From Methanobrevibacter sp. (GTDB lineage Archaea > Methanobacteriota > Methanobacteria > Methanobacteriales > Methanobacteriaceae), in contig JAFRFB010000060.1 in assembly GCA_017434555.1 (NCBI GenBank), positions 1 through 35,518 of the forward strand: a DNA stretch of 35,518 nt, written 5' to 3'. Under the pieces are notes generated by a model. That model saw only the letters and a program-made list of their open reading frames with translations. It was not told the origin of the DNA and ran no database searches. This document shows, one piece after another, positions 3,624 to 27,395 of this stretch. The position numbers and the translations under genes were made by a program. Positions within the stretch are counted from its first letter, which is position 1. Every line of letters starts with the position of its first letter.

Positions 3624-3648
3624 AAAAAGTGATTTAGTATCACTTTTT
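3624..3648 (-). terminator. Stem-loop terminator of the UvrD-like helicase gene
   Basis: AAAAAGTGAT (3624-3633) pairs perfectly with ATCACTTTTT (3639-3648) around the loop TTAGT. The arm overlaps the helicase TGA stop (3640-3642), and on the minus strand the stem is followed by a T-rich tract. Confidence 0.65.
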
Positions 3649-6600
3649 ACAGATTTTTGTGTAAGGACATCCTGAACAGTCCTCACAGTCGGAATCAAAT
3701 TCATTGTTTCTTATTTTTTCAGCTGTTGTTCTTAGTTCTTCTTTAAGCTCTTCAATATAATAGTCATCTATATTGAATGAGAAGAGTTTATCTCCTTTAT
3801 ATTTGATGGCATATATTTGAATTTCCTCAATTTTATGGCCTTCAAATTCCTTGTTTTCATCACGTAGTGCCATTACATAAAAGTGAAGCTGTTTTCTGTA
3901 TTTTTTAAGGAAATCCTTACTTACAAGTGATGTGTTTTTATAGTCAAGAATTCCAAGTTTGCCATCTTTTTCATAGATTAAATCAACAACACCTGAAAAT
4001 GCATAGTTTTCACCTCTTATGTAGAATGGATATTCACTGTTTAATATTGTCAAGTTGTTTCCAACTTCATTGTAATATCTGACAACGTCTTTTGTGATTG
4101 TTTCAAGTTTTAAATTATATTTGTCAGGATATTCTTCTTTAAATTTAAGATTGGCCTTTTCAAATAATCTTTCAACAGTTTTTGCGGCTTCTTCATCACC
4201 AATATATACGTTATCGTTGGCTTTTACCTTTTTATTGATGATTTCTAGTGCTGAGTGTATGAATATACCGTCATCGATTTCCTTTTTGGTTGAAAATTTA
4301 AATCCGAGTTCATTCAGGAGCTTGTATTTGAAGGGACATTCGTTGTAGTTTTCAAGTGCAGTGAAACTTAAATTGACGATTTCAACATCCTCGCCATGTT
4401 CTTTTGGTGAAAGAATGTTTATTGATATGTCATCGGGGTTAATTAACTTGGCATAATCAAGGTTTTCATCAATTACGTTATTTATGCGTTCAGGGCCTTT
4501 TGAAATTGCCCTGATGTTTTCATCACAGCAGTCATCTATTGCTCTTTCAACGCTTTCAGCAGAGTCCTTGACAATGCTTGATAAAATCAGTTCGTCTTCT
4601 GCTCTTGTTTTTGCAACATAGATTACCCTTTCCTCTTCCTGAATGTGTGATGATTTGGCATCGCCGTCATACTTGTCATAAGCCAGGAATTCTTCTGGAG
4701 TGTATGTGACTGATTCTGTGTCTGATTCCTTAAATGATGAAGGAAAACCGTTGTCACGTAGTGAGGCCAGAATTACAACCGGAAACTCCAAACCTTTTGA
4801 AGCGTGAACGGTCATGATTTGAACTGCATCTTCATCAGGCTTATATGCGTCAAGGTTTTGTATTGAACGCTTTATAAACCAGAATGCGCCTCTAAGGCTT
4901 CGGTCATACATTACTTCTCCGTAAACTGACATTGACGGTATGATTGCTCCAAGGTTATTTGCGATATCCTCATTGTTGTTGATTAAATCTTCGGTTAAAT
5001 ATCCTGTAATATCGCATAAGAGTTCAAAATAAACTTCAGATATTGTTGGTCTGTCGTAATATGACTCTGCATTGACTCTGGCTTTGAGTTCATTCAGTTT
5101 ATGGAAGAATTTCAAATCCTTTTCATCGCTTATTCCGTATTTGTTTAGGTTTTCATCACTTAATATTGGCTTTTTGACACGGCTGAAGACTTCTTCCTGA
5201 CGCATCTGCTCTTTTGAAAATATTCCGCTGAACTTTTTGATTCCTCTTTTTCTTCCTTCTATTTCAGAGCATACTATCTTATCAGTATCAATGACATTTC
5301 TTACAAATTCATCATGCAGGTTATTCAGTATATTTTTGGTGTCATCTGAAAGTTCAAAGAGTGCTTTGTTGTCATTTGCACCGGTTAATGTCTTTAAGTT
5401 TAGCCATTCGTCTGTTTCTCTTGGAACGAAAGTGTAGTAAGGGTCATCTTCCTGAATTAAATGATACATCAGAGTTAAGATGTATTTCAGCTCGTCACAG
5501 TCTTTTAAATCTCCTGTTCCTTTTACCTGATAGTTGATGCCGTTTTTTTCGAGAAGTTCGATTAACGTATCAAAACATGATGATCTTGATTTTACTGAAC
5601 GCATCAGTATTCCTATATCTGAAAGCTTAAGCTTTCCGTCAGCCATAATGTATTTGATGATTTCAAGGATGTTTTCAGCTTCTTTTGTTTTGTCTTCATT
5701 AACCATGAAGTAGATGTCGTTGGATTTGCCGTTTCCGCATTTTGCAGGAATCAACTGATCCGGGGAGTCATAATGAGGTAAAATAAAGTCCTGTGACAAA
5801 TCGATAATCTCTTTGGTTGAACGGTAATTGGTTGATAAAAAGACTTCCTCGAACTTTTCTGAGTATTCATCAATAAGTTCCTTGAAATAGTTTTTGTTGG
5901 AGCCTCTAAAACCGTAGATACTTTGGTTAATATCTCCTACAACGGTAAATGATTCTGTTTTAGGGTTTTCAATGAACTTTCTGAATAGTTCCATCTGAAC
6001 AGGGTCTGTGTCTTGAAATTCATCAATCAGTATATTTGTGTATTTGGGAACATGTCCGTCGTCTATTTTACTTAATGCCTTAATCTGCATCTGATTGTAG
6101 TCAATTGAGTTTTCCCTTTTTAAGAGGTCGAGATAATCCGGGTATGACTTTGCAATCTGGATGTATTTTGCATTCTTGTAGGACTCTTTAAACTCATCAT
6201 TTTCCTTTACTTCATCTGATGGAAACTCTCCATCATTTTCTTCCATATACGTTGTTACAAACTCAACGAATTCGTCTGAAACTTTAAAATTCGCTTCAAG
6301 GTAATCTGTGAGTTTTTCTGTGTCAGCATTGAATGTTGAATATTCGCTGTATTTGGAGATGATATTTGTGATATCATAATTTCCTCTGATATATGATTCG
6401 TTTTCAAATCCGAGGTCTTTCAGGTGTTTTTTGATGAAGAGATTTAATTTGTCTCCTTCTGAAACTATATCCAAACCGACTGTTCCTGTCTCTTCAAGGA
6501 TTTTTAAACAGAATGAATGGATTGTGGAAATCTGCATCTTTTGAACGTCACTTGCAGGGATATCTCCTTCAATAAGTCTGTCTTTTAGCTCATCAGCAGC

Positions 6601-6783
6601 TTTTGTAGAAAATGTGATTATTAAAAAGCTTTCAGGTTTTGCTCCAAGTTCATTAACCATATATTTGACTTTTTCAACGATTACACGTGTTTTTCCAGAA
6701 CCAGGTCCTGCCTGAACACTTAAAAATTTATCGCCTTCATATTCAACGATTTTCTTTTGTTCCTCATTCAATTCAATTGCCAT
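3640..6783 (-). CDS. UvrD/AddA-like helicase fused to an Fe-S PD-(D/E)XK nuclease
   Basis: A 1047-residue protein that should unwind and degrade DNA ends, in the manner of AddAB/RecBCD helicase-nucleases. The superfamily 1 helicase core spans about 1-700: Walker A 'AGPGSGKT' (25-32), 'TFSTKAADEL', 'DEFQDTD' (254-260), 'GDINQSIYGFRG' (283-294), 'STNYRS', 'TVHASKGLEFPVV' and 'RVIYVAKTRAEDEL'. The C-terminal 230 residues hold a RecB-type nuclease with 'GILDYKNTS' and a Cas4/AddB-type iron-sulfur site: one Cys in 'NECPFKYKLL', then Cys1036-x2-Cys1039-x5-Cys1045 at the extreme end. One chain therefore combines what AddA and AddB share out. The start is set by GGAGT at 6790-6794. Role in repair or in anti-phage degradation is not decided by sequence. 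No partner gene is adjacent. Confidence 0.85.
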   Translation of the reverse strand: MAIELNEEQKKIVEYEGDKFLSVQAGPGSGKTRVIVEKVKYMVNELGAKPESFLIITFSTKAADELKDRLIEGDIPASDVQKMQISTIHSFCLKILEETGTVGLDIVSEGDKLNLFIKKHLKDLGFENESYIRGNYDITNIISKYSEYSTFNADTEKLTDYLEANFKVSDEFVEFVTTYMEENDGEFPSDEVKENDEFKESYKNAKYIQIAKSYPDYLDLLKRENSIDYNQMQIKALSKIDDGHVPKYTNILIDEFQDTDPVQMELFRKFIENPKTESFTVVGDINQSIYGFRGSNKNYFKELIDEYSEKFEEVFLSTNYRSTKEIIDLSQDFILPHYDSPDQLIPAKCGNGKSNDIYFMVNEDKTKEAENILEIIKYIMADGKLKLSDIGILMRSVKSRSSCFDTLIELLEKNGINYQVKGTGDLKDCDELKYILTLMYHLIQEDDPYYTFVPRETDEWLNLKTLTGANDNKALFELSDDTKNILNNLHDEFVRNVIDTDKIVCSEIEGRKRGIKKFSGIFSKEQMRQEEVFSRVKKPILSDENLNKYGISDEKDLKFFHKLNELKARVNAESYYDRPTISEVYFELLCDITGYLTEDLINNNEDIANNLGAIIPSMSVYGEVMYDRSLRGAFWFIKRSIQNLDAYKPDEDAVQIMTVHASKGLEFPVVILASLRDNGFPSSFKESDTESVTYTPEEFLAYDKYDGDAKSSHIQEEERVIYVAKTRAEDELILSSIVKDSAESVERAIDDCCDENIRAISKGPERINNVIDENLDYAKLINPDDISINILSPKEHGEDVEIVNLSFTALENYNECPFKYKLLNELGFKFSTKKEIDDGIFIHSALEIINKKVKANDNVYIGDEEAAKTVERLFEKANLKFKEEYPDKYNLKLETITKDVVRYYNEVGNNLTILNSEYPFYIRGENYAFSGVVDLIYEKDGKLGILDYKNTSLVSKDFLKKYRKQLHFYVMALRDENKEFEGHKIEEIQIYAIKYKGDKLFSFNIDDYYIEELKEELRTTAEKIRNNEFDSDCEDCSGCPYTKICKK

Positions 6784-10768: not shown

Positions 10769-10816
10769 AATTTATACAAACATTAACATAAATTAATAAC
10801 AATTATATTTAGGGTG
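10769..10816 (+). promoter_or_regulatory. Promoter and Shine-Dalgarno site of the mcrBC operon
   Basis: AATTTATAC (10769-10777) is a TATA-like box; the start site should fall near 10800. AGGGTG at 10811-10816, five bases before ATG 10822, is the ribosome site. Confidence 0.5.
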
Positions 10817-10821
10817 TTATC

Positions 10822-13425
10822 ATGGCAAATATGTGGATGGTTCGTGCTGGTGAATATGCATTTTTATATGATGATTTTAAAAATTTTAACATTGTAGCTG
10901 TTGGATGGCAGGTTCCTGATTTATCCGGTAAAAATCCGGAGGAAATTAAGCAAATAATGGAAAATAAGTATTCTGATGTTACAAAAACTAGTTTAGCAAT
11001 ACAATCAGCTCAAGTAATTAAATTTGTTTGTGAATTTGAAATTGGTGATTTTGTAGTTTCATATGATCATTTTACTCGAAAATATATAGTTGGTCAAATT
11101 ACTTCTGATTATTATTATTCAGATATTATTTCTAAAAAATATGGAGAAAATAACGAATTTTATTCTCATGTTCGGGATGTTGAATGGATTGGTGAGACTA
11201 GAAGGGATGATTTATCAACAAATACGGCCAAATCACTGAATGCCACTCAAACAATATTTAATATTCGGGATGCTTATAAAAATGATATTTTATATTGCTT
11301 AAATTTAGATAATATTGAATGGACAAATTTCTATATGGAACTGGCGGATAAATTGATTGAATATAAAGATGATAGGTCATCTTTAATTAATAAAATTCAA
11401 AATATATTCAATGAATTGAATATGAATTTGCCCTCACTTGAAAGAAATGATGATGGAAATATTATAATTCCATATGATATAGATCCTTTCACTGTTTTTG
11501 CTCTTTTTAACAAACAAATATCTGCTGAAAAGCGCATTGATATTGTAAAACAGTTTAAAAAAGAATTTTCGATTTCTGCCAATGCTCCATATACATTTCA
11601 TGGGATTGCTGTAGTTAATAATATGGCTGCTACTTTTTACTATTTTAATAAAAATCGTGGCGAAAATGATATTGATAACATGTGGAATCTTTTTGAAATA
11701 GCTTTAAAATATTCTGAGGAAAATAAAAAAGATTTCATTGAAGTTTATGATAAAGTTATAAATCAAAAAGGTATTCGTTGGAATATTTCAATGGCATTGA
11801 ACTGGGTTAGACCCTTTAATTTCATCAACTTGGATGCAAATAACAGAACACTGTTGTCTCAAGAGAAAATATTTTCCAGTGAGTTTAAAGACCAAATAAA
11901 ATCATTAAAATCTCCTCCTTCTGGTGAAGAATATCTTAAAATATGTCAATATTGTAATGATATAATTTATGAAACTGATAAATATGTTAGTTTACCAGCA
12001 TTATCTCATAGTGCATACATGAATAACTTAAAAAATAATAAAGAATCCTCCAATGATGGAATTGGTGATGATGATGTTAAAAATATTAAATATTGGTTAA
12101 TTTCGCCTGGAAGAGGTGCTGAATTTTGGGATGAATTTTATAAAAATGGTGAAATGGGAATTGGTTTTGATGGAACTGGTGATTTAAAGCAATATAACTC
12201 TAAAGAAGAATTAAAAATTAAATTCCAGGAAATATATGATGATAATTCTTCCCATAGGAATGATGTGCATGCTTGTTGGCAATTTGTTCATGATATACAA
12301 ATTGGGGATGTTGTATTTGCTAAAAATGGAATGTCTGAAATAATTGGTAGGGGAATTGTTGAAGGGGATTATGAATATGATACAAATAAATCTTATCATA
12401 AAATAAGAAAGGTAAAATGGACTAATAAAGGTAATTGGGAATCAAAAGATACATTGCCTATGAAAACATTAACTGATATCACTAATTACACAGAATTTGT
12501 AAAAAATATTAAAGAATTGTTTATAGATGAAGAAAGCAGTGAAGATGAGATTTCAGAAATAAAATATCCAGATTATAGTTTAAATAAATTTTTAGAAGAG
12601 GTATATATTTCAGAAGATGATTATAATACACTTTTTAATTTACTAATAAATAAGAAAAATATAATTGTTGAAGGCGCTCCAGGTGTTGGAAAAACATTCA
12701 TGGCCAAAAGACTTGCTTATTCAATAATGGGTGAAAAAAATAGTGAAAGGGTTATGATGGTTCAATTCCACCAAAGTTATTCTTATGAAGATTTTGTAAT
12801 GGGTTTTAGGCCGGTTAAAGATGGATTTGAACTAAAGCACGGATCTTTTTATCAATTTTGTAAAAAAGCAGAAGAAGATTCTGAAAATGAATATTTCTTC
12901 ATAATAGATGAAATTAACAGAGGTAATCTAAGCAAAATCTTTGGTGAGCTCTTTATGTTAATTGAAGCAGATAAAAGAGGAGACAAAAATAAAATTCAAT
13001 TACTGTACTCTGATGAACTGTTTTTCATTCCAAAAAATCTTTACATTATTGGATTAATGAATACCGCAGATAGATCCTTAGCAATGCTTGATTATGCATT
13101 AAGACGAAGATTTGCTTTCTTTGATTTAAAACCTGCATTTTCATCTGATGGTTTTATTAATTATCAAATGGAATTAAATGATGAAAGATTTGATAATTTA
13201 GTATTAGCTATTAAAGAGTTAAATGAAGAAATTAAAAACGATGAAAGTTTAGGTGAAGGCTTTAGAATAGGCCATAGTTATTTATGCAATTTAAAATCAG
13301 CGGATAATTTGGATTTCATAATAGAATATGAATTAATTCCACTATTAAAAGAATACTGGTTTGATGAGCAAGACAAAGTCAGATATTGGTCAGATAAACT
13401 AAGAAGCGTGATTGAGTTTGATTAA
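10822..13425 (+). CDS. mcrB: McrB-type GTPase with two EVE/PUA-like reader domains
   Basis: An 867-residue subunit of a modification-dependent (type IV) restriction system: a hexameric AAA+ GTPase that moves DNA for the McrC nuclease. Residues 1-150 form an EVE-like domain ('MWMVRAGEYAFLYDDF', 'FEIGDFVVSYDH'); 170-400 are an alpha-helical region seen in EVE-McrB proteins; 420-560 form a second EVE-like domain ('YWLISPGRGAEFWDEFY', 'DIQIGDVVFAKNG'); and 590-867 form the AAA+ motor with Walker A 'GAPGVGKT' (618-625), 'DEINRG' (696-701) and the McrB signature 'MNTADRS' (746-752), followed by the arginine-finger region 'LDYALRRRFAFF'. EVE/PUA folds read modified cytosines, so the target is probably modified foreign DNA, but the base is unknown. 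It overlaps mcrC. Confidence 0.9.
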   Translation: MANMWMVRAGEYAFLYDDFKNFNIVAVGWQVPDLSGKNPEEIKQIMENKYSDVTKTSLAIQSAQVIKFVCEFEIGDFVVSYDHFTRKYIVGQITSDYYYSDIISKKYGENNEFYSHVRDVEWIGETRRDDLSTNTAKSLNATQTIFNIRDAYKNDILYCLNLDNIEWTNFYMELADKLIEYKDDRSSLINKIQNIFNELNMNLPSLERNDDGNIIIPYDIDPFTVFALFNKQISAEKRIDIVKQFKKEFSISANAPYTFHGIAVVNNMAATFYYFNKNRGENDIDNMWNLFEIALKYSEENKKDFIEVYDKVINQKGIRWNISMALNWVRPFNFINLDANNRTLLSQEKIFSSEFKDQIKSLKSPPSGEEYLKICQYCNDIIYETDKYVSLPALSHSAYMNNLKNNKESSNDGIGDDDVKNIKYWLISPGRGAEFWDEFYKNGEMGIGFDGTGDLKQYNSKEELKIKFQEIYDDNSSHRNDVHACWQFVHDIQIGDVVFAKNGMSEIIGRGIVEGDYEYDTNKSYHKIRKVKWTNKGNWESKDTLPMKTLTDITNYTEFVKNIKELFIDEESSEDEISEIKYPDYSLNKFLEEVYISEDDYNTLFNLLINKKNIIVEGAPGVGKTFMAKRLAYSIMGEKNSERVMMVQFHQSYSYEDFVMGFRPVKDGFELKHGSFYQFCKKAEEDSENEYFFIIDEINRGNLSKIFGELFMLIEADKRGDKNKIQLLYSDELFFIPKNLYIIGLMNTADRSLAMLDYALRRRFAFFDLKPAFSSDGFINYQMELNDERFDNLVLAIKELNEEIKNDESLGEGFRIGHSYLCNLKSADNLDFIIEYELIPLLKEYWFDEQDKVRYWSDKLRSVIEFD

Positions 13426-14449
13426 GATAAAAAATATTTATTATATGCTTTCATATGCATTTTATGCATTAAATGATGATAAATATAAGAAAGTTGAAAC
13501 AGAAGAGTTTGAAAATACTGCAGAACTTTTTGCAGAGATTTTAGCTATTGGTGTTTCAAAACAGATTAAACAGGGATTGGTTAAAGACTACATTGATGTA
13601 AGTGAGACCACTTCATCAATTAGAGGAAAAATTGAAATTACAGATTCAATCAATTCACAATCATTTTTAAAAAAGCAGTTAACATGCACTTATAATGAAT
13701 TTAGTGTAAATTGCTATTTAAATCAGATATTAAAGTCCACTATGTTAGTTTTGCTAAAATCAGATATTTCTTCTATTCAAAAGAAAAAACTAAAAAATAT
13801 TTTAAGGTATTTTACAGAAGTTGATTTGATAGATGTTAATTCAATAAATTGGAAAATACGATTTGACAGAAACAATCAAACTTATAGAATGCTGATTGGA
13901 GTTTGTTATTTGACCATCAAGGGGTTGCTTCAAAGTGAAAAGTCTGGTGAGACTAAATTGATGCAATTTATTGATGATCAATTAATGAATCGGTTGTATG
14001 AGAAGTTTATACTAAATTACTATAAAAAAGAGCACCCCTCTGTTAAAGCTAGCGCATCACAAATCAATTGGCAGCTGGATGACGGTATAGATTATCTGCT
14101 TCCAAGAATGCAGAGCGATATAATGCTTGAGTATGGAGATAAAGTTTTGATTATTGATGCTAAATATTACAAAAATACAACTCAAAGCTATTATAATACG
14201 AATACTATTCATTCAGGCAATTTATATCAGATTTTTACTTATGTTAAAAATAAACAGTTGGAAAACTGTGATTTGGAAGTTTCCGGAATGCTTCTTTATG
14301 CAAGGACTAATGAAGAGATTTTGCCCAATAACTCTTATCAAATGAGTGGGAATAAAATAAGCGTCAAGACTTTAGATTTAAATCAGGATTTTTATTTGAT
14401 TAAAGAGCAATTGGATGGAATTGTAGAGGATTATTTATATGGATATTGA
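13418..14449 (+). CDS. mcrC: McrC nuclease subunit
   Basis: A 343-residue McrC-like protein that activates the McrB GTPase and cuts DNA. The N-terminus 'IKIKNIYYMLSYAF' is the family's standard opening, followed by the DUF2357-like helical region. The C-terminal PD-(D/E)XK nuclease is visible: Asp234 in 'RMQSDIML' and Asp247-Ala-Lys249 in 'LIIDAKYYK'. There is no ATG at the family start; TTG 13418 gives exactly the expected N-terminus, with GTGAT about six bases ahead, while TTG 13412 would add two residues. The start overlaps the end of mcrB by 8 bases, which implies translational coupling. The gene ends by overlapping the next ATG by 11 bases. Confidence 0.87.
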   Translation: MIKIKNIYYMLSYAFYALNDDKYKKVETEEFENTAELFAEILAIGVSKQIKQGLVKDYIDVSETTSSIRGKIEITDSINSQSFLKKQLTCTYNEFSVNCYLNQILKSTMLVLLKSDISSIQKKKLKNILRYFTEVDLIDVNSINWKIRFDRNNQTYRMLIGVCYLTIKGLLQSEKSGETKLMQFIDDQLMNRLYEKFILNYYKKEHPSVKASASQINWQLDDGIDYLLPRMQSDIMLEYGDKVLIIDAKYYKNTTQSYYNTNTIHSGNLYQIFTYVKNKQLENCDLEVSGMLLYARTNEEILPNNSYQMSGNKISVKTLDLNQDFYLIKEQLDGIVEDYLYGY

Positions 14450-14879
14450 AAAATTAAAAAATGATTTTAAAATATATGTTTTAGACAATAATAATCATAT
14501 AATGGACAATGATTTAGCAATTGATTATGAAATAAATCACAATGGAATATATATTGAATTAATTGAAATCAGAGAAGGTTTCTGTAGTGGCTGTGATGAA
14601 TTTGATTTTTATATTGTGGATAATGATTTTTACAATAATTTAACCGATTATATCATAATAACGCCTAAAGAAAGGATAAACCTTCCGGTTGGCAATGATA
14701 GTGAGCTTGAATATTTCAAATTTGGTGTTAAAATCATACAGGATGAAATATGCTATGGAATTAATGATTCTGATGAATTCATGGACTTTGGAAATGATTA
14801 TTTATTGTTTTCAGACAATGCCAATTTATATGATTATCTGATTGATAAAATGAAAGGGATAATGAGGCCATATGAATAG
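14439..14879 (+). CDS. Hypothetical small acidic protein in the mcrBC operon
   Basis: A 146-residue, very acidic protein with alternating hydrophobic residues that suggest a mainly beta fold. A single Cys-x2-Cys ('FCSGCDEFDF') lies near residue 50. I recognise no family. AGAGGA at 14425-14430 precedes the ATG. It overlaps mcrC by 11 bases and the SWIM gene by 8, so it is a fixed member of the operon. It could be an accessory or regulatory subunit of the restriction complex, or act with the SWIM proteins; the sequence does not decide. Confidence 0.6.
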   Translation: MDIEKLKNDFKIYVLDNNNHIMDNDLAIDYEINHNGIYIELIEIREGFCSGCDEFDFYIVDNDFYNNLTDYIIITPKERINLPVGNDSELEYFKFGVKIIQDEICYGINDSDEFMDFGNDYLLFSDNANLYDYLIDKMKGIMRPYE

Positions 14880-16416
14880 TTGGGAATTTTTATTTGAAGA
14901 AAGGATTCTGAATCGGGGATATTTTATCACAGATGATGTGAAAATATTAAACAGAAGCCCGAGAGAAGTCAATGCCATTGTCAGCGGAACATTTGATTAT
15001 GACGTCAGAATAGAATTTGACAAGCAGGGATATGTTGATTCTATGAGCTGTACTTGTCCTTATTTTGAAAGGGATAACTGCAAACACCTTGCAGCACTAC
15101 TGTACTTTCTGGAAGAAAATGAAGAGAATGATGTTGAAAGTGATGATGAGAGTATTGAAGAGTTGTTTGAAAGTATTGATGATGAAAGGCTAAAAGAATT
15201 TCTCCTTGAGGAGCTTTATGTTAACTGGGAGTTGAAAAACAAATTCAGACTTCAGTTCGCATCAAAAGTTGATGAAAATTACTATAAGTCAAAACTGGAT
15301 AATATAATTTATGAGGATGACTTTTCATTTGAATTGTCCTATTTTATTCGTGAAGATATTGAATTTCTCTTTGACAAAAAGGAATATGGGCTGATTTTGG
15401 AGCTTGTTGATGATGCGTTCATAAGTTCCTGCTATAAACTGGAATATCCATGGAATGATAATTATCATGATAATTTAAAAGAGATTGGGGAGGTAATATC
15501 CAGATTATCCTCTACAAATATTAGCGATGAAGTTTTTGAATGGCTTGTATCTGTTGTTCGCTATAAATGCGATGAAGACTATGCAAATATCTTTTTTGAA
15601 ATTCTTTTCTCCAACTTTAATTTGAAATATCAGCTTGAGGATAAATATGATCTCGTCAATGCAATTATTCCAAAAACGAATTCATATTATAGAGAATCCT
15701 ATATCCTGGCTAAAATCCGGCTGATGCATGATTTGAACTATCCTCAAAGTGAAATCGATGAATTCAGATTGAAATATTTAAAATATCCTAAAGTAAGGCA
15801 GCAATTCATAGATGAAGCTATTGAACTTAAGGATTACTCGAAAGCCATTAAATTAATTAAAACAGGAATTTTAAACTCAAAATATGACAGTGACAAACAT
15901 CAATTCCACATTCAGCTGAAAGAATTATACCTAAAAAGTGATGATTTGGACAATTACAAAAAGGAACTCTTCCAGATTATTATAAAATACTGTGACATTG
16001 ATGACTATAAGGAATTGAAAAAGCAATATGAGAAAAACGAATGGGCAGAAATTAGAGAGGAAATATTTAAAAGCTGTATTGATTGCAATCGCTTTTTAAA
16101 TGAATGTTATGATTATGAGGGGCTTTATGACAACCTGATTGACAACATTTTTCATGAAGCGGATTTATCACTTTATAAAAATAAGCTATCCAAAGACTAT
16201 TCCGGCCGTTTGCTTGAAAAGTATTCAAAGATTGCAAATCAAAAGGTTTCCAAAACCGGTTCAAGAAAACATTACCGAGATATTGCTGATTTGTTAAATG
16301 AAATGCTAAGTATTTCAGGCGGTGAAAAAGTAGTTTCAGAAATGTTAAATGAATGGAAAGTGAAATATAAAAACAGACCTGCCATGTGGGATGAATTTAA
16401 AAGAGTAAAAATATGA
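14872..16416 (+). CDS. SWIM zinc-finger protein
   Basis: A 514-residue protein with a SWIM-type zinc finger near the N-terminus: Cys60-x-Cys62-x7-Cys70-x-His72 ('CTCPYFERDNCKH'). A short strand-rich segment before it (35-58) completes the usual SWIM fold ('EVNAIVSGTFDYDVRIEFD'). The remaining 430 residues are helical, with repeats that look TPR- or HEAT-like ('KLIKTGILNSKYDSDKHQF', 'LYLKSDDLDNYKKELF'). SWIM fingers bind DNA or proteins and are often found beside SNF2 helicases or, as here, in defence gene clusters. GAGG at 14864-14867 precedes the start; the stop overlaps the next gene by 4 bases (ATGA). The function in this operon is inferred only from linkage. Confidence 0.75.
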   Translation: MNSWEFLFEERILNRGYFITDDVKILNRSPREVNAIVSGTFDYDVRIEFDKQGYVDSMSCTCPYFERDNCKHLAALLYFLEENEENDVESDDESIEELFESIDDERLKEFLLEELYVNWELKNKFRLQFASKVDENYYKSKLDNIIYEDDFSFELSYFIREDIEFLFDKKEYGLILELVDDAFISSCYKLEYPWNDNYHDNLKEIGEVISRLSSTNISDEVFEWLVSVVRYKCDEDYANIFFEILFSNFNLKYQLEDKYDLVNAIIPKTNSYYRESYILAKIRLMHDLNYPQSEIDEFRLKYLKYPKVRQQFIDEAIELKDYSKAIKLIKTGILNSKYDSDKHQFHIQLKELYLKSDDLDNYKKELFQIIIKYCDIDDYKELKKQYEKNEWAEIREEIFKSCIDCNRFLNECYDYEGLYDNLIDNIFHEADLSLYKNKLSKDYSGRLLEKYSKIANQKVSKTGSRKHYRDIADLLNEMLSISGGEKVVSEMLNEWKVKYKNRPAMWDEFKRVKI

Positions 16417-17327
16417 ATTTAAATCAAATAAAAAACAAAAATATTAAGAGTTTAATAAAAAAGCTTTCAAAATTTCAGAGTTTCGATGATGCTCCAAGAG
16501 ATTTACGTGACAATCTCCTTATGGAGCTTAGATTTGCAGTTCTTATTGTTCCTGCATATGACGTAAATGAGGATACATTCAAAATCAAATATTTTAAACT
16601 TACAGAAAACTTTGATAATTTTCACGTCTATACGGATTTATCCGAGTTTAAAAAAAACAAGTCAAAAGATTTTACACCAATGAATTATGAATTGCTGGAC
16701 TTTGAAAATATAATTTATTTTACTATCGCCAATTTGATTATCAATGATGCATATGAAATTCCAATGAGTAGAATCTGGGATTCAATCAGCAAGGAGAATT
16801 CAAATAGATATTTCTTTGAGGAGTATTCACATGACTATAGTCTTGAAGACACTTTAAATTTAATCAAATCATTTAACAATGAAAAATTAATATGTTATCT
16901 CAATGAAAGAAAGAGTATTCAAAGTTATGATGCTCTTTTTCATGTTTTAAACAAATCTGTTGTATTTGCAGACATTCAAGTCATCGGCCAAAGTGATTCG
17001 ATTCTTTTGAGTCATGAAGTCGAGTCATATTATTGTATCAGCGAAGACAACTGTATTGTTACCTACACCGATTTGGAGTCATTTAATGAGGATTATTTTG
17101 CAGTCGTTGACTGGTTAGAACTGATTTTATTTGTAATCCGTTATCAGTTAAATGGCATTAAAATTAAAACCGCAGGGCATGAAATTAAACTTTCAAGAAA
17201 TCAGCTCGTAAAGCATTTTGACAGGATTTGCCAATCAATTTATGAGTATAATTATACAAATACATTCAGATATATATTCAAAGTGGAGGATTATGTAAAT
17301 GGCAGAAAAATTAAACTGGAGAGATGA
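16413..17327 (+). CDS. Hypothetical protein between two SWIM genes
   Basis: A 304-residue protein without cysteine clusters, membrane segments or known motifs, mixed alpha/beta by eye. It starts within the stop codon of the first SWIM gene (ATGA overlap) and ends 29 bases into the second. No strong Shine-Dalgarno site is visible, so it probably depends on translation of the upstream gene. Family not recognised. Its strict placement between two SWIM proteins suggests it forms a complex with one or both. Confidence 0.6.
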   Translation: MNLNQIKNKNIKSLIKKLSKFQSFDDAPRDLRDNLLMELRFAVLIVPAYDVNEDTFKIKYFKLTENFDNFHVYTDLSEFKKNKSKDFTPMNYELLDFENIIYFTIANLIINDAYEIPMSRIWDSISKENSNRYFFEEYSHDYSLEDTLNLIKSFNNEKLICYLNERKSIQSYDALFHVLNKSVVFADIQVIGQSDSILLSHEVESYYCISEDNCIVTYTDLESFNEDYFAVVDWLELILFVIRYQLNGIKIKTAGHEIKLSRNQLVKHFDRICQSIYEYNYTNTFRYIFKVEDYVNGRKIKLER

Positions 17328-18048
17328 ATTTTCAGATGAAATTATAAATCAATCCAATGACTATATTGACTTTATTAGAGATGTTTATATTAATGGATGT
17401 CATATTAATGCAAATCTTAAAAAATCATCACACTTCCATGTAAGAATTAATATAAAAGATAATAAAGTGGATTATATGTTCTGCAATTGCCGAAAAAAAG
17501 GCAACTGCAAACATCAGGCCGCCGTTTTAAGATATGTGGAAGAAAATAATCTTTTAGAAAAAGAAAAAGATTTCCTGAATTTGATTGAAACTGTAGATGA
17601 TAATCTTTTAAAGGAGTTTTTTGTTGAAGTTTTAACAGAAGACCATGTTTTGAAAGAAGAGTTTATTCGAAGATTTAAAAAGGAACCTAAAATTGACTCT
17701 AAACCTTATTTTGATAAATTGAATTTCATTATTGAAACTTCAAAAGGTAGCGATTATTATAATTTCGGATATTATGATATTGATGTTTTGGCCTCCAGAA
17801 TACATGACTTTTTATGTGATGAAATTTTTGAGTTAATGAGAATGCATCAGTATGAAGTTGTTTTTGAATTGCTAGACTATATTGCCGATGTTTTAAATGA
17901 TGAAATGTATGTGGATAACGATTATTGGTATGATGCCTGCGATGAGTATCTTCAAATTGCATATACACTGCAAGATACATATGTCTTGTCTCATGAGCAG
18001 TTAGATCGTTTGGATTGTGATTGTTCATTCATGCATCAATATATGTGA
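17299..18048 (+). CDS. Short SWIM zinc-finger paralogue
   Basis: A 249-residue protein with a compact SWIM finger, Cys62-x-Cys64-x5-Cys70-x-His72 ('CNCRKKGNCKH'), followed by the same type of helical region as the 514-residue SWIM protein. Both have a 'LKEF' helix followed by an acidic segment after the finger, and 'FELLDYIADVL' here aligns with 'LELVDDAFISS' there. It stops where its paralogue still has about 270 residues. Its last residues ('CDCSFMHQYM') look unlike the rest and could come from a frameshift. GGAGG at 17285-17289 lies nine bases before the ATG. It is the last gene of the mcrBC operon. Confidence 0.68.
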   Translation: MAEKLNWRDEFSDEIINQSNDYIDFIRDVYINGCHINANLKKSSHFHVRINIKDNKVDYMFCNCRKKGNCKHQAAVLRYVEENNLLEKEKDFLNLIETVDDNLLKEFFVEVLTEDHVLKEEFIRRFKKEPKIDSKPYFDKLNFIIETSKGSDYYNFGYYDIDVLASRIHDFLCDEIFELMRMHQYEVVFELLDYIADVLNDEMYVDNDYWYDACDEYLQIAYTLQDTYVLSHEQLDRLDCDCSFMHQYM

Positions 18049-18328: not shown

Positions 18329-19822
18329 ATGAATAATGTTTTCTTATCAAAATCCAGCTACTGCAAATGTGTGCAGTGTGAAAAGATTCTTTGGCTGGAA
18401 AAATATAAATCTGAATATTTGCCTGTAAATACTAATGAATCAAATTTTAAAACAGGTATGGAAGTAGGTGAACTTGCAAAGGGACTTTTTGGTGATTATG
18501 AAGAGGTTTATTATGATAAAAATCTCAGCGTAAGGATTGAAAAAACAAAGAATTTGCTTTTGGATAAACCCAATATCATTGCAGAAGCATCATTTACCTA
18601 CAACAATAATTTCTGCAGTGTTGATATCCTGAAAAATGATTCTGATGGTGTTGAGATATATGAAGTAAAAAGCTCAACAAAAATCAAGGACATTTACCTC
18701 GACGATGCTTCATACCAGTATTATATTCTTACGAATTTAGGTTTTAATGTAAAGAATGTCTCTATTGTTTATGTTAACAATGAATATGTAAGAGGCAATG
18801 ATTTGGATATTGAGCAACTCTTTAAAATAGAAGATATTACCGATATAGCTATTGAAAAGCAGGCAGAAATCAGAAATTACATTGATTTTATAAATGATTT
18901 CATCAATTCTCATAACGGAGATAATGAGCCGGAAAAAGATATAGGAAAGCACTGCTTTGATCCTTATTCCTGCAGTTTCTGGAATTACTGTACAAAAGAA
19001 CTGCCAAAACCTAATGTTTTTGATATTGCTGGAATGTTTAAATCTAAAAAATTCGAAAAGTATTATGAAGGAAAAATCTCTTTTGAGGATTTGAAAAATG
19101 AAGATTTAAACCCGAAATATCTCGAACAGATTGATTTTGAGTTAAATGACCGTGAAGCGAAAATCAATAAAAAAGCTATTGAAGATATTCTATATTCTCT
19201 CAGATACCCGTTATATTTCATTGATTATGAAACCTGCCAGTATGCAATACCTGAGTATAGCGGGACAAAACCATACCAGCAGATACCTTTCCAGTACTCG
19301 CTTCATATAATTAAAGATGAAACCTCACCGATAGAACATAAGGAATACCTGGCAGACGTTAATGATGATGATTTAATCAGAACTTTTGCAGAAAGTATGA
19401 TTCATGACATGCCCGAAAACGGAAGCGTAATAGTCTATAATAAATCCTTTGAAGCCAGCAGAAACAAGGAAATCGGGAAAATGTATTCTGATTTAAAGCC
19501 GGAAATGGATAGATTCAACAACAATATGGTTGATTTGATGATACCCTTTAAAAACAGGGATTATTATACAAAAGAAATGAAAGGTTCCTATTCCATAAAA
19601 TATGTTTTGCCTGCATTATATCCTGATGATGTGGAACTGGATTACTCTGAGCTTTCATTAATACATAAGGGTGATGAGGCATCCCAGGCTTTTTTAAGCT
19701 TAAAATATAAGACTCCTGAAGAGCAGGAAGAAATTAGAAAAGCCTTACTTGAATACTGCAAACTTGATACCTATGCAATGGTAAAGATATGGGAAAACTT
19801 TAGGGAAGTTATAGTTCGTTAA
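18329..19822 (+). CDS. DUF2779 protein: Cas4-like nuclease plus DEDD-type exonuclease-like domain
   Basis: A 497-residue protein. The N-terminal half (1-220) is a Cas4/RecB-like PD-(D/E)XK nuclease with an iron-sulfur site: Cys12 and neighbours ('YCKCVQCEKILWLEKY'), Asp99, Glu112-Val-Lys114 ('YEVKSS'), and a closing cluster in 'CFDPYSCSFWNYC'. The C-terminal half is DUF2779, which has an RNase H/DEDD exonuclease look: Asp299 and Glu301 in 'YFIDYETCQY', a middle Asp region ('NNMVDLMIPF') and 'YCKLDTYAM' near the end. Cas4-like nucleases process DNA ends. It may belong to the defence region, but it has its own promoter and is convergent with the next gene, which ends only 23 bases away. The biological role of the family is not established. 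Confidence 0.8.
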   Translation: MNNVFLSKSSYCKCVQCEKILWLEKYKSEYLPVNTNESNFKTGMEVGELAKGLFGDYEEVYYDKNLSVRIEKTKNLLLDKPNIIAEASFTYNNNFCSVDILKNDSDGVEIYEVKSSTKIKDIYLDDASYQYYILTNLGFNVKNVSIVYVNNEYVRGNDLDIEQLFKIEDITDIAIEKQAEIRNYIDFINDFINSHNGDNEPEKDIGKHCFDPYSCSFWNYCTKELPKPNVFDIAGMFKSKKFEKYYEGKISFEDLKNEDLNPKYLEQIDFELNDREAKINKKAIEDILYSLRYPLYFIDYETCQYAIPEYSGTKPYQQIPFQYSLHIIKDETSPIEHKEYLADVNDDDLIRTFAESMIHDMPENGSVIVYNKSFEASRNKEIGKMYSDLKPEMDRFNNNMVDLMIPFKNRDYYTKEMKGSYSIKYVLPALYPDDVELDYSELSLIHKGDEASQAFLSLKYKTPEEQEEIRKALLEYCKLDTYAMVKIWENFREVIVR

Positions 19823-19845: not shown

Positions 19846-22800
19846 TTATTTCCATCCTATTCTTTCCATTTCTTTTTCGAATTTGGATAATAAATTTATA
19901 TCTAAATTTAATTCAATTAATATGTCTATTTTATTATCAATTTTATTTGTTATAATACGATTTATATAATTTTCAAAATATTTAAAATTGGATAATGCAT
20001 TAAATAACTTATTTTCATTAATTAAACCTTTAATCAAAATATTAATATTTGATTCAGTATTTGAAAGATAAGATATTAATATATCACTTTCAGTTTTTTC
20101 ATCATGTATTTTAATAGTTGTTTCATTAGGATTATAGTTATATAATTCTCTTTTTAATGTTGATATTGCTTTATCAAAATCCCTAACTCCCCATCTATAA
20201 TTATTTTTCAAAACTTCATCATATACTTTAAAAATATTTTCATTTGAAATGTATATTTTCTTTCCATTGATTTTTCTAGTAAAAACCCACATAGAAGAAG
20301 GTTTTTCTAACCATGCAAATCCTGTTTTACTTGGAATTGTAAATAATTCTTCATATTTGTTATTTAATGGTTTTAAAATATTCTCATATTCATTTGGAAG
20401 TATATTGAGGATTTCATCACATTCTTTAGGCATATTTTGTGGGATATTCCTTGTTGTTTTTGCATTTTTATTTTCTTGCAATGATTTAAATGCTTTATGT
20501 TTATCTCTTACTCCCCAAGTTAGTTTATGTTTACAAACTTCCTCAAATAATTCTTGAATACTTTCATTCCGAATATTATATGGCTTTTTATTTATATTTC
20601 TTGCATATGACCATTTTCCTCCAGAAAAATTAACCCATGCAAATCCTGTTTTACTCGGAGTAGTGAATTTTTCTTCAAATTTTTCTGGAAGTGGATCAAG
20701 AATATCCTTTGCTACAATTTCATCAGTATTATCCTGAGTTGGTGAATCATCTTCTATTAAGTCACCATATAACTTTAAGAATGTATCTATATTCCAATTA
20801 GGATTAGGGTGTTGTTGATTGCTTAATGTTTTGATAGCTTTTTCTTTATCTATTACACCCCAAATATTTCCACTTTCTAAAACTTTTTCAAATAATATAT
20901 ATAAATTTTCATCAGTTCTTTTAAATTGTTTTTTATCAATGCTTTTTGTGTAAATCCATTTATTTCCCACCTTATTTGTCCAACCAAAGCCAGTTCTATT
21001 ACTTTGAGTCGAATAATTGGCAATTGGTTTTAATAAATCTTTATATTTTTCATAATCAATATTTTTAGATGTATTTTCTGTATCTTTTAAATATGCATTT
21101 AGTTCAAGTTCTATTTCGGATTTTAACTTATTAATTTTTTTTATTTCATTATAAAAATTAACAAAAATTTCTCCAATATTTTGTTTTCCTCTGTTTATCC
21201 AATATGTATATGTATCATATGGAAAATCAACGATTTCACAGGCTTCTTTATCTGATTTTCCTTTAATCAATAATTTTAATATTTTATTCATTAATTTTAT
21301 AATACTTTGACTACCGATACTTTTTTCTTGTTTTACAGTTGGGTATTCACCAATTTGATTTAAAATTTTGGCTTCTATAAAATTATTATAAAAATCCTCT
21401 TCTTTACTTTCTAATTCATGTTTTACATTTTCATAATCTAAATTTGATTCATTACAAGCTTCTTTTATACTATATCCTTGTTTAATTAAATCAAAGAAAT
21501 TTACATCATATTCTTTACATTTAGTATAGAATTCTTTATAGTCTTCTTCACCAAGTCTTCCATATTCATACCATGACAAAATACTTTTTTCATAAGATCC
21601 ATTTTTATATTTTTTAGCAGCTTCTTGGATAGTTAATCCTTCGTTAATCATATTAATGATATTATTCTGTATTTCTTTGTCTTCATGTTCTTTAGTTATT
21701 TCACGTTTAATTTTAGTATATTTATTTAAAAAATCAGAAAATGGTTTTTTATTTTCTTTTCCATTTGAAAACCAATCGTTTAAAACATTTTTGTCTAGTG
21801 ATGCTTGTTTACATGAATCCTCATCACTCCATCCTTGTGAGATATATTCTAAAAATATTTTTCGTTTAGCATTGTTTAAATCACTTTCAAATTCTTTTAT
21901 AACATCATCATAGTCTTCTTTGTTTATTTGGTTGAATTGGTTTAAAAATTCGTTATATGGGATAATATTATTTTCACCTAGGATAATCCAATCATCAATT
22001 GTTTTTTTGTTAATAATATTGGATTTTTTGCAAGCTTCCTCAATATTTTTATTTTCTTTAAATGATTCTAAAAAATCATTATTTTGTTTTATAAGTTCTT
22101 TTAGTGAATATGCTTTAATTGTTCTTTCAATTTTACTTAATTTTTTATAAAAATCGATATTTTCTTTTCCAAATCCTTGTCTGCCTTCATTAAACCAATG
22201 GGTAATTTTATAAAGAGGAATATTTGCAATAATGGATGCTTCTTTTCTTGTTCTTTTTCGTGACATTGCATCTAAAACAATTTCTCTTTTATTTTCATTT
22301 GTTGTTTTTTTAGTTTCTTTAGTTTGTGAAGATTCAAGTGGAGTATCATATTCTTCTTTATAATACTTTTTAATAAATTTTAGTCCAGTTTTTTCATCTG
22401 TTAAAATATAATTTTGTGTATTAAATTTATTTTTAATCAAATCATTTTCAAGTAAATTCCAAATATTTCCTTTTAATTGGAATGTATCTTTAAAATATGC
22501 TTTTAAATCATTTTCGCTAAATTCATCTTCCCATTTTACATATTTATTTAACTGTTTTAAAAATACTGCTGATCTAATTAATTTTTTACATTTTTTACAA
22601 TTGTTTTCATATCCATCATCACTATTTTCACTACTATAAAAATTGGATATTTCTAATGTTTCGCCGCAGGTTTCACAAGTTTTATTTAATGAAACTGATG
22701 TTTTTTCATCTGTTTTAATTTCAAGATTGCACTCCTGAGCGAATTTATCTAAAGTATCTCTTGGTTTAAGAATATATTTGGAATTCTTTTTAGTAATTAG

Positions 22801-24234
22801 ATTAAATTCTTGTAATGTCCAGATATAGTCTTGAATTTGTAATTTTTTCAAATTAATTAATTTTAAATCGTCTTGTCTAAATGGAATTCCTGGGTCAATT
22901 GATGGTAATAACTTTTCAAGTATTGAAACTGCATATTGTTTTCTTAAACATCTTTTACAGATATTTTTTTCACTATTTTTATTCAAAGATCTGCCACATA
23001 TAGAACATTTATTAAGAGTTGTTTTTTCTTCTTTTTTGTTTTCTCCATATTCTAGTAGAGTTTTTTCTTTAACTTTAGATTTAGGAGTATTATTAATATT
23101 ATATGCTTGGTAAAAATTGTAATATTCACTATTACCTAGTTTTCCTTGATTAATCCAATTTTTAACTAAATATTGAGGAATATTTACTTCTTCGAGAGCT
23201 TCTTTATTAGTTTTCCCATTCTGTTTTAATTTAATAAATTCTTCCATTAGTGCATTGTTTTTAGATGTTTTATCTGAATTTTTAATTTTAGAAGTGCCTT
23301 TAATTTTCATATATTCATTGTAAAATCCATTATATTCACTAGATTTATCTTTTCCTTTTTCAATCCAAGAATTAAATTCATTTAAATCCAAATTTGATTT
23401 TTTCAATGAATCGTTTAATTTTTTATCTTTAGAATATTCATCTAAAAATACATTCATTTTTATAATATCCATTTTTGAAAGATTTTCATTAAAGTTTTTT
23501 GTTTTATTTTGACTAACAAGGTTATAGTAACTTGTCATTAAATTATCATTAGCTGTTTTTGAAACTCCTGAATTATTTAATTCATTGTATTTTTTATAAA
23601 ATTTAGCATATTTTTTGTCGTTATTTTTGCCAGATTCTAGCCATAAGTCTAGTTCTTCTTTTGTTATATTGGCAATTTTTAAAGATTCTTCAACAGTTTT
23701 ACCTGCTTTAATTGAATTTAAAAATAAATTTTCACGGGATACTGGTTTGATTTTTTCAATTTCTTTAATTAATTTTTCTATATTTTCAATGAAATTTCCA
23801 TTTATGTTTCCCAGGTCAATGGTTTCAACATTAATATATGTCCCTTGAAAGATGGCAGATTTTTTAATTGAGTAATTATTTAAATTAATATTCCTGTATT
23901 TTTTAATTAAAATATTTTTATCAACATATAGGTTATTTTTATTAATCATTCCTAAACAATTTTTATTATATATCTCATTTTTTGGAAAATCATAGATTAG
24001 AATATAATCTTCAAGAGAAACATCATCGGAGCTTGAATTAACAATACCGAATATATAGAAATATTTATTTTCATTTTCTGAATGTGCAAACCAGATTTTT
24101 CTACCTTTTGAGTAGAAAATTCTATTTATTTGCCCAATATTTTTTGTTTTATAAAATTTATCTATTTTCAAAGGATATTTGACTTTTAATTTTTTTAAGA
24201 ATTGTTCATGTTCTTTTTTAATTTTTTTAATCAT
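19846..24234 (-). CDS. Giant HTH-repeat/zinc-ribbon protein (protein A)
   Basis: A 1462-residue protein that I cannot assign to a characterised family. Residues 1-150 form an unrecognised mixed domain. Nine copies of a ~52-residue helix-turn-helix-like unit (three at 168-382, six at 650-1034) share 'G.T..EA....NI....V..W...GK......FY..Y..I'. Two zinc ribbons lie between (Cys410/413/426/429 and Cys520/523/546/549), each followed by a winged-helix-like stretch ('IPFRQDDL...IWTLQEFNLI' pattern). Three copies of a ~60-residue unit with 'TGFAW' and 'WGV.D..KA' follow (1078-1137, 1194-1252, 1301-1360). A helical tail with an acidic/Asn-rich composition ends it. The units resemble the DNA-binding part of phage terminase small subunits, so multivalent DNA binding is an inference. 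No catalytic motif is seen. It is divergent from the operon at 24412 and shares modules with protein B. Confidence 0.8.
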   Translation of the reverse strand: MIKKIKKEHEQFLKKLKVKYPLKIDKFYKTKNIGQINRIFYSKGRKIWFAHSENENKYFYIFGIVNSSSDDVSLEDYILIYDFPKNEIYNKNCLGMINKNNLYVDKNILIKKYRNINLNNYSIKKSAIFQGTYINVETIDLGNINGNFIENIEKLIKEIEKIKPVSRENLFLNSIKAGKTVEESLKIANITKEELDLWLESGKNNDKKYAKFYKKYNELNNSGVSKTANDNLMTSYYNLVSQNKTKNFNENLSKMDIIKMNVFLDEYSKDKKLNDSLKKSNLDLNEFNSWIEKGKDKSSEYNGFYNEYMKIKGTSKIKNSDKTSKNNALMEEFIKLKQNGKTNKEALEEVNIPQYLVKNWINQGKLGNSEYYNFYQAYNINNTPKSKVKEKTLLEYGENKKEEKTTLNKCSICGRSLNKNSEKNICKRCLRKQYAVSILEKLLPSIDPGIPFRQDDLKLINLKKLQIQDYIWTLQEFNLITKKNSKYILKPRDTLDKFAQECNLEIKTDEKTSVSLNKTCETCGETLEISNFYSSENSDDGYENNCKKCKKLIRSAVFLKQLNKYVKWEDEFSENDLKAYFKDTFQLKGNIWNLLENDLIKNKFNTQNYILTDEKTGLKFIKKYYKEEYDTPLESSQTKETKKTTNENKREIVLDAMSRKRTRKEASIIANIPLYKITHWFNEGRQGFGKENIDFYKKLSKIERTIKAYSLKELIKQNNDFLESFKENKNIEEACKKSNIINKKTIDDWIILGENNIIPYNEFLNQFNQINKEDYDDVIKEFESDLNNAKRKIFLEYISQGWSDEDSCKQASLDKNVLNDWFSNGKENKKPFSDFLNKYTKIKREITKEHEDKEIQNNIINMINEGLTIQEAAKKYKNGSYEKSILSWYEYGRLGEEDYKEFYTKCKEYDVNFFDLIKQGYSIKEACNESNLDYENVKHELESKEEDFYNNFIEAKILNQIGEYPTVKQEKSIGSQSIIKLMNKILKLLIKGKSDKEACEIVDFPYDTYTYWINRGKQNIGEIFVNFYNEIKKINKLKSEIELELNAYLKDTENTSKNIDYEKYKDLLKPIANYSTQSNRTGFGWTNKVGNKWIYTKSIDKKQFKRTDENLYILFEKVLESGNIWGVIDKEKAIKTLSNQQHPNPNWNIDTFLKLYGDLIEDDSPTQDNTDEIVAKDILDPLPEKFEEKFTTPSKTGFAWVNFSGGKWSYARNINKKPYNIRNESIQELFEEVCKHKLTWGVRDKHKAFKSLQENKNAKTTRNIPQNMPKECDEILNILPNEYENILKPLNNKYEELFTIPSKTGFAWLEKPSSMWVFTRKINGKKIYISNENIFKVYDEVLKNNYRWGVRDFDKAISTLKRELYNYNPNETTIKIHDEKTESDILISYLSNTESNINILIKGLINENKLFNALSNFKYFENYINRIITNKIDNKIDILIELNLDINLLSKFEKEMERIGWK
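20155..21003 (-). repeat. Three copies of a ~60-residue 'TGFAW...WGV' unit in protein A
   Basis: Units lie at 20824-21003, 20479-20655 and 20155-20334. Each has an aromatic 'KTGFAW' start, a 'W.(Y/F).R.I..K' strand, 'NE(N/S)' before an amphipathic helix, and 'WGVRD..KA...L' at the end. The pattern suggests a small alpha/beta binding module of unknown type. Confidence 0.7.
21133..22287 (-). repeat. C-terminal array of six HTH-like units in protein A
   Basis: Residues 650-1034 carry six ~52-residue units (starts near 650, 719, 791, 856, 912, 980). The fifth is degenerate and lacks the tryptophan. Signature residues are 'EA' in helix 1, 'W' in helix 2, then 'G(K/R)' and 'FY'. Confidence 0.7.
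22393..23007 (-). repeat. Paired zinc-ribbon module of protein A shared with protein B
   Basis: Residues 410-614 align end to end with residues 139-342 of protein B. Shared are four-Cys ribbon, 'LEKLLPSIDPGIPFRQDDL' versus 'LEEIIPITGVGIPFKKEDL', 'IWTLQ(E/D)FNL', second four-Cys ribbon, and 'GNIWNLLENDLI' versus 'GKIFNLQDNDLI'. Confidence 0.75.
23089..23733 (-). repeat. N-terminal array of three HTH-like units in protein A
   Basis: Residues 168-382 carry three units, for example 'IKAGKTVEESLKIANITKEE' followed by 'LDLWLESGK' and 'KFYKKYNEL'. They share the signature of the six-unit C-terminal array. Confidence 0.7.
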
Positions 24235-24891: not shown

Positions 24892-26109
24892 ATGATGATT
24901 GAACAAACAATTGTTGATTTATCAGAACATATTGATATTTCTGAAGGTTTTAAAAAAGAAGATTTGGAGGATTTTTTCAATGAAAATAAAATTGAGAGTT
25001 CGCTAAATCTTTTAATAGAAAATAATTTACTTTTTGAAGAAGAAGGTAACTTTTATTTTGATGAAGAAGTAATCGATCAATTTAATGCTCAAATGGATAA
25101 CTTAAATGATGAAGAAGTTAATAGTGATTCAGATAAACAAGAATCCAGTGAAAGCGATTCTATTCAAGAAGAAAATGAACCTTTAAATACAAGATCTAAG
25201 GAAGTTTTATCTATATCTGATATTTCTATTCAACACGAAACTGAAGAAAATACTATAAAATACTCTAAAAGTAAAACTTTAGATGATTTTGCTGATAAGT
25301 CTGATAAACCAGCGGATTTTGAATCTAAATTGTCTATGGTTCGAGAAAAATCAGAAAAAAATGTTGATAACTCTAGATATTGGATTCATAAAACAGATTT
25401 TTCTATTTTGGAGGATATTCATAAATTAAACCAAATAGGTTCTGAAAAACCTAAATCTAAATATATCAAAGAAATTAAACCTAATGATTATATTTTATTG
25501 ATTGTAAATAATAGGGGTCATTTGGACTTTTTTGGTTTAACAAAAGTTGATGAAATTATAAATATTGAAAAACGAGATAATTCTGATTTTTATAAATATT
25601 ATAAATCTGATATTCAGTTAAAATTAAAATCAATCAGGTACTTTAATAATCCTATTGTTGGTGCCGATATTGATAATGAGTTATCATTCGTTGAGAAAAA
25701 TAAGAAAATATCTTCTTATATTAAAACAGATTATAAAGAAATTCCGAAAGATGATTTTAAAAAGATTATGAAACATGGACACTTTATAAAGTCATTTCCA
25801 GCATATTTCGACAGTGTTGATTTAAATTTAAAGGAATTTTTAATGAATTCTATATTATATTTATATAATAACTTAAAAAACAAACAAAAATCTGAATTAA
25901 TTGAGATTAAAGTATTTTTGCAAAAATTGCAGGAGTTTGTTGCTAAATTAGGTGTTAAATTAGATTATGAGTATCTTGTTGAATTTTATTCTTGGAATGC
26001 AATTGAATTGGAATTTACACATGTGCCATATAGGGATCCTGATAAGGCTATTCCATTATATGATACAAGGGGAAAGAAAAAAGAATATGCATATATTGAT
26101 TTAAAATAA
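24892..26109 (+). CDS. Winged-helix-like and EVE-like domain protein of the ATPase-helicase operon
   Basis: A 405-residue protein (412 if the ATA at 24871 is the start, which the strong AGGAGGG site favours). Residues 5-55 look like a winged helix ('FKKEDLEDFFNENKI', 'LLIENNLLFEEEGNFYFD'). An acidic Ser-rich linker follows (60-130). Residues 160-290 resemble an EVE/PUA-type reader domain ('SRYWIHKTDFSILEDI', 'IKPNDYILLIVNNRG', 'DFFGLTKVDEI'), and the C-terminus is helical. EVE-like folds bind modified bases in DNA or RNA, so this could be the recognition subunit; this assignment is by pattern only. It lies 13 bases before the ATPase gene. Confidence 0.6.
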   Translation: MMIEQTIVDLSEHIDISEGFKKEDLEDFFNENKIESSLNLLIENNLLFEEEGNFYFDEEVIDQFNAQMDNLNDEEVNSDSDKQESSESDSIQEENEPLNTRSKEVLSISDISIQHETEENTIKYSKSKTLDDFADKSDKPADFESKLSMVREKSEKNVDNSRYWIHKTDFSILEDIHKLNQIGSEKPKSKYIKEIKPNDYILLIVNNRGHLDFFGLTKVDEIINIEKRDNSDFYKYYKSDIQLKLKSIRYFNNPIVGADIDNELSFVEKNKKISSYIKTDYKEIPKDDFKKIMKHGHFIKSFPAYFDSVDLNLKEFLMNSILYLYNNLKNKQKSELIEIKVFLQKLQEFVAKLGVKLDYEYLVEFYSWNAIELEFTHVPYRDPDKAIPLYDTRGKKKEYAYIDLK

Positions 26110-26122
26110 TTGGGGAATTTGT

Positions 26123-27385: not shown

Positions 27386-27395
27386 AGGTTAATTT

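Follow-up and report, generated by a model that had tools for sequence, protein, structure and literature searches.

The six-gene run

The 35,518-nucleotide stretch of DNA analysed here (the window) comes from an archaeal assembly of 3.15 Mb (G000), probably of a Methanobrevibacter-like member of the Methanobacteriales, and contains, at positions 10822-18048, a run of six consecutive open reading frames on the forward strand, each of which overlaps the next (Table 1). The initial annotation had described this block as six overlapping genes that join McrBC to two SWIM proteins and two unknown proteins, and its coordinates proved accurate. The junction overlaps that it gave, 8, 11, 8, 4 and 29 bases, are reproduced when mcrC is started at the TTG codon at 13418, which matches the position at which mcrC homologues begin; with the mechanical start of the reading frame at 13412 the mcrB/mcrC overlap would be 14 bases. 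All six frames can be accepted as real genes, not chance frames, because their homologues are conserved in other genomes, at identities of 54-80% for McrB and McrC, 63-71% for P146, 62-67% for SW514, 28-49% for P304 and 73% for SW249 (one relative, in G014).

A TATA-like element lies upstream of mcrB and is probably the promoter of the whole block, and a GGTG ribosome-binding-like site is found at 10813-10816, ahead of the same gene. The gene overlaps suggest co-translation. Since most genes of the block keep a Shine-Dalgarno-like site of their own, the further proposal that the six proteins are made in a fixed ratio does not follow from the overlaps.

Table 1. Features of the window discussed in the text
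Feature	Position	Strand	Description
UvrD helicase-PDDEXK nuclease	3640..6783	-	assigned by Pfam
TATA-like element	10771..10776	+	tttata, ~46 bases upstream of the mcrB ATG
mcrB	10822-13425	+	867 aa
mcrC	13418-14449 (mechanical ORF start 13412)	+	343 aa (345 from 13412)
P146	14439-14879	+	146 aa; orphan, partner gene of SW514
SW514	14872-16416	+	514 aa; SWIM and TPR-like alpha-solenoid
P304	16413-17327	+	304 aa; predicted double SseB-domain protein
SW249	17299-18048	+	249 aa; short SWIM protein (finger plus tail)
Cas4-like/DUF2779 nuclease-like gene	18329..19822	+	DUF2779 8.8e-45
1462-aa protein	19846-24234		very low GC
Four-gene run	24892-33195	+	looks like a BREX- or Shango-related variant

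McrB and McrC

The identification of the first two genes as mcrBC is upheld by Pfam, NCBIfam and PDB matches. McrB matches Pfam AAA_5 (1.9e-22) and the E. coli McrB structure 6hz4 in the PDB (2.2e-87 over 278 residues), and its AAA+ GTPase domain (residues 608-764) carries the Walker A sequence GAPGVGKT at 618, DEINR at 696 and MNTAD, the NxxD motif, at 746. The GTPase domain is preceded by two mutually homologous reader-like domains (about residues 1-164 and 423-580; hhalign probability 97.6, E 2.7e-12), and residues 1-164 match PADLOC PDC-S02. We read these front domains as EVE-like readers of modified bases; the Pfam EVE family gives no match to the N-terminal domains of McrB. McrC matches Pfam McrBC (4.7e-35) and the NCBIfam equivalog NF007277 (393.8 bits, cut-off 338), and contains a PD-(D/E)xK-type nuclease motif, D...DAK (DIMLEYGDKVLIIDAKYY).

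The locus shares with the McrBC type IV restriction system of E. coli K-12 the mcrB-mcrC gene order, the GTPase motifs, the PD-(D/E)xK nuclease of McrC and an equivalog-level McrC, and differs from it in that its McrB has two homologous reader-like domains in place of DUF3578 and in that the run has four additional genes. Judging from these matches, genes 1 and 2 appear to form a canonical, standard two-gene type IV restriction system, which would act as usual: McrBC would read modified DNA and translocate with GTP, and McrC would cut.

McrBC-type operons extended by separate cassettes have been described in the type III-A CoCoNuTs (PMC11090510), and the window resembles them in having a McrBC-type core with extra gene cassettes in one operon. 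The CoCoNuT cassettes set out there comprise TerY-like VWA domains, ATPases and CARF proteins, whereas those of the window are of the SWIM/SseB kind, and in an informal comparison nothing was seen that marks the window McrBC as a CoCoNuT. The main text of this McrBC census (Bell et al. 2024, PMC11090510) makes no mention of SWIM or SseB, and a literature search found no article that links either of them to McrBC.

The four add-on proteins

Both SWIM proteins recognized in the initial annotation hold up. The fingers of SW514 and SW249 score 24.4 and 22.1 bits against the Pfam family (PF04434; cut-off 19.6), with matches at 2.1e-5 and 1.1e-4, respectively, and both contain the motif CxCx(n)CxHxxA that they have in common with other SWIM proteins. 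In SW514 the zinc finger is N-terminal (residues 60-75), and the AlphaFold model (pLDDT 89) consists of a SWIM hairpin followed by a helical, TPR-like alpha-solenoid, which resembles TPR and other helical-repeat folds most closely. The PDB fold matches were also considered as a clue beyond the fold class and set aside, as they show a helical repeat only. Unlike other SWIM zinc-finger proteins, SW514 has its finger joined to a TPR-like solenoid, with no SNF2 ATPase.

Only one of the two proteins described as unknown has remained so. P304 gives no match in a direct Pfam scan, but its relatives match SseB (PF07179) at 1.7e-16, 1.9e-12 and 1.3e-6, with two stretches each; it can be named, through these relatives, as a predicted double SseB-domain protein which, unlike them, itself falls below Pfam detection. 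P146, by contrast, stays an orphan: it has an invariant CxxC, belongs to no family in Pfam, NCBIfam or PHROG, and its AlphaFold model, built from three sequences, is too low in confidence for use (pLDDT 43.5). Among 61 genomes, P146 orthologues are present only in G035 and G013, where both stand immediately before an SW514 orthologue. Another archaeal genus (g26) has solenoid-SWIM genes in tandem with short SWIM genes, adjoining a 166-171-aa protein (L110, L113); this protein, upstream of the tandem genes, was considered as a relative of P146 and rejected for lack of similarity.

Searches of Pfam, PADLOC, NCBIfam and further families detected no enzymatic domain in P146, SW514, P304 or SW249, so these proteins most likely act by binding, and our best guess from their domains is that the module would be a non-catalytic binding scaffold. 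No relatives of the four were found in viral contigs, and a plasmid search returned weak SWIM-region matches in haloarchaea only and none for P304.

McrBC and the add-on genes in other genomes

Gene neighbourhoods were surveyed in 152 genomes of the class and in 341 genomes of a clostridial class. An McrC match is present in 29 of the 152, and 15 of these 29 have a McrC of the window type, defined by at least 57% identity. At most four of the 15 window-type loci have a SWIM or SseB gene adjoining mcrBC. SWIM genes follow mcrC in two, the window itself and G035, the latter with the P146-SW514 pair; G104 has a DUF6398-SseB gene that overlaps mcrC by 14 bases and is followed by a SAP-like protein, and in G122 an SseB gene precedes mcrB. 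The remaining window-type loci have unrelated neighbours or none. In G009, mcrC overlaps a DUF2779 gene by 8 bases with no gene between, and the DUF2779 gene of the window, 74% identical to that of G009, lies 3.9 kb beyond mcrC with the four add-on genes in the interval. Across the class, the add-ons were not found as the conserved unit with McrBC that a six-gene extended system calls for.

The add-on genes, or their close equivalents, also occur by themselves. With no McrBC on the stretches seen, neighbouring SseB and SWIM genes are found in G035:C78, G116:C189 and G019:C102, and G014 has a remnant of such a pair. Several contigs of the survey are short enough for an McrBC past the end to escape notice. 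The genus contains 32 SWIM loci, two of them beside an intact mcrC and one near an mcrC 3' remnant. Solenoid-SWIM relatives were examined at about 15 loci in g26, for the most part in chromosomal contexts that recur, and at 13 loci in Clostridia; none of these has McrBC beside it. The initial annotation had offered, as grounds for abandoning its proposal, that the SWIM block be found mostly away from mcrBC. This is the case for SWIM genes at large, and it is not the case for the P146-SW514 pair, which was seen three times: behind mcrC in the window and in G035, and alone in G013, where McrBC is on a different contig. In the SW514 tree the two McrBC-linked sequences are sisters, joined next by the free G013 sequence and with G116 outermost, so one linkage event may explain the pairing with McrBC.

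Small accessory cassettes seem to be gained and lost at the end of mcrC, since the DUF6398-SseB cassette of G104 (L155, G104:C35, 6098-11549) is bracketed by a duplicated mcrC 3' end whose two copies share 94.6% identity over 350 bp. In G116 a lone mcrC 3' remnant lies 0.9 kb after a SWIM gene of the SW514 type, the fourth of that type. Neither an mcrC 3' duplication nor long direct repeats, as an insertion scar, were found around the block in the window.

Because most McrBC relatives are without the add-ons and each pair, or a close equivalent, is found without McrBC, we consider it likely that the block comprises a standard McrBC plus two optional accessory pairs, which make up a separate SWIM/SseB module, and is not a six-subunit restriction enzyme. 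The initial annotation had left the choice between an extended type IV system and an McrBC with a distinct SWIM-based module attached; the neighbourhood surveys, in which the pairs are separable and SWIM genes at large lie mostly away from McrBC, favour the latter. Weighing against it are the presence of P146-SW514 beside McrBC in two of three cases, the SW514-type gene near an mcrC remnant in G116, the four tight overlaps behind mcrC, and the contacts of SseB genes with McrBC or LlaJI loci in G104, G122, G001 and G027. Given this pairing, the overlaps and the SseB contacts, the add-ons may yet have a functional tie to the nucleases. In G027 a LlaJI-type McrC runs on into a P304-like SseB N-terminus (L060, G027:C57, 3522-5246), which may reflect gene fusion or the decay of an adjacent gene.

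Defence-island context and alternative readings

The block lies among other genes of the defence-island kind. Homologues of the window UvrD-PDDEXK gene have SWIM or McrBC genes nearby in several genomes. Further along the window is the four-gene run, which seems to be a variant related to BREX or Shango. Its products are a protein of 405 aa, a BrxD/SngB-like ATPase (PADLOC 1.8e-77 and 4.1e-66), a BrxHI/SngC-like helicase (PADLOC 5.7e-152 and 2.6e-127) and a protein of 1194 aa that has a zinc ribbon at its N terminus and gives no PADLOC match. Between this run and the DUF2779 gene lies the 1462-aa protein, which has helix-turn-helix-like (HTH_28) matches, no clear family and three similar C-terminal segments with a KTGFAW... 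motif.

Seven of the 32 SWIM loci of the genus are within 10 kb of mcrC or of a strong UvrD-PDDEXK homologue, which under a rough uniform null gives a binomial P of about 1e-6 (3e-8 to 4e-5 at a chance of 1-3% per locus). Together with the SWIM genes that adjoin Csm CRISPR operons in two unrelated genomes, G111 (a remnant) and a Ruminococcus, and with the repeated adjacency of SWIM, SseB, PRiA4_ORF3 and SAP-like genes, this enrichment speaks for SWIM/SseB genes as a general set of defence-island accessories, which would serve McrBC, LlaJI-type, Csm and UvrD-PDDEXK systems alike. We nevertheless regard such a set as unlikely: the anchors were picked after the loci had been seen, 25 of the 32 loci are elsewhere, and accessory genes cluster in islands without any functional link, so that generic clustering of defence genes could by itself bring SWIM genes near nucleases and the enrichment is a lead, not proof. 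PRiA4_ORF3 (PF07929) proteins separate SseB from SWIM genes, or a SWIM gene from the helicase-nuclease gene (L061, L120), and in G111 (L163, G111:C18, 527-8457) Csm3-Csm4-Csm5-Cas6 are followed by the SWIM remnant and then by a 79% homologue of the window helicase-nuclease.

The two pairs might instead be independent conflict modules of a toxin-antitoxin-like or regulatory sort that the island simply houses, an idea that suits their organization as two-gene units with overlapping frames, their patchy distribution and the occurrence of remnants and pseudogenes, but that we hold to be doubtful at best, as no toxin or nuclease domain was found and the solenoid-SWIM gene of g26 is common and keeps to recurrent chromosomal contexts. 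Quite improbable is an extended type IV system, in which the SWIM and SseB proteins would be McrBC cofactors (for example in DNA loading or restraint) and the six genes one functional unit: the five overlapping junctions, the P146-SW514 pair directly behind mcrC in two genomes and the different SseB fusion that overlaps mcrC in G104 agree with it, yet the majority of window-type McrBC loci, G009 among them, have none of the four genes, the pairs also live alone, and the McrBC-linked SW514 proteins are sisters for which a single linkage event may suffice.

Implications

Under the reading that we favour, a standard McrBC with a separate SWIM/SseB module, the pairs P146-SW514 and P304-SW249 would have come to lie downstream of mcrC, ahead of the gene that follows in the island. 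From the domains present, contacts with nucleic acid or protein would fall to the SWIM finger, and a scaffold role to the solenoid and the SseB partner; the add-ons would then probably form a stand-alone regulator or an accessory of the island rather than nuclease subunits. Far more speculative, and in our estimate very unlikely, is that solenoid-SWIM and SseB proteins represent an unrecognised non-catalytic helper family for McrBC, LlaJI-type, type III CRISPR and UvrD-PDDEXK systems, whose targeting they might alter or which they might restrain.

Overlapping genes behind mcrC, then, need not belong to McrBC. A formerly unknown protein of the block can now be assigned SseB domains, and the evidence as a whole points to SWIM-solenoid proteins as recurrent yet optional residents of archaeal defence islands.
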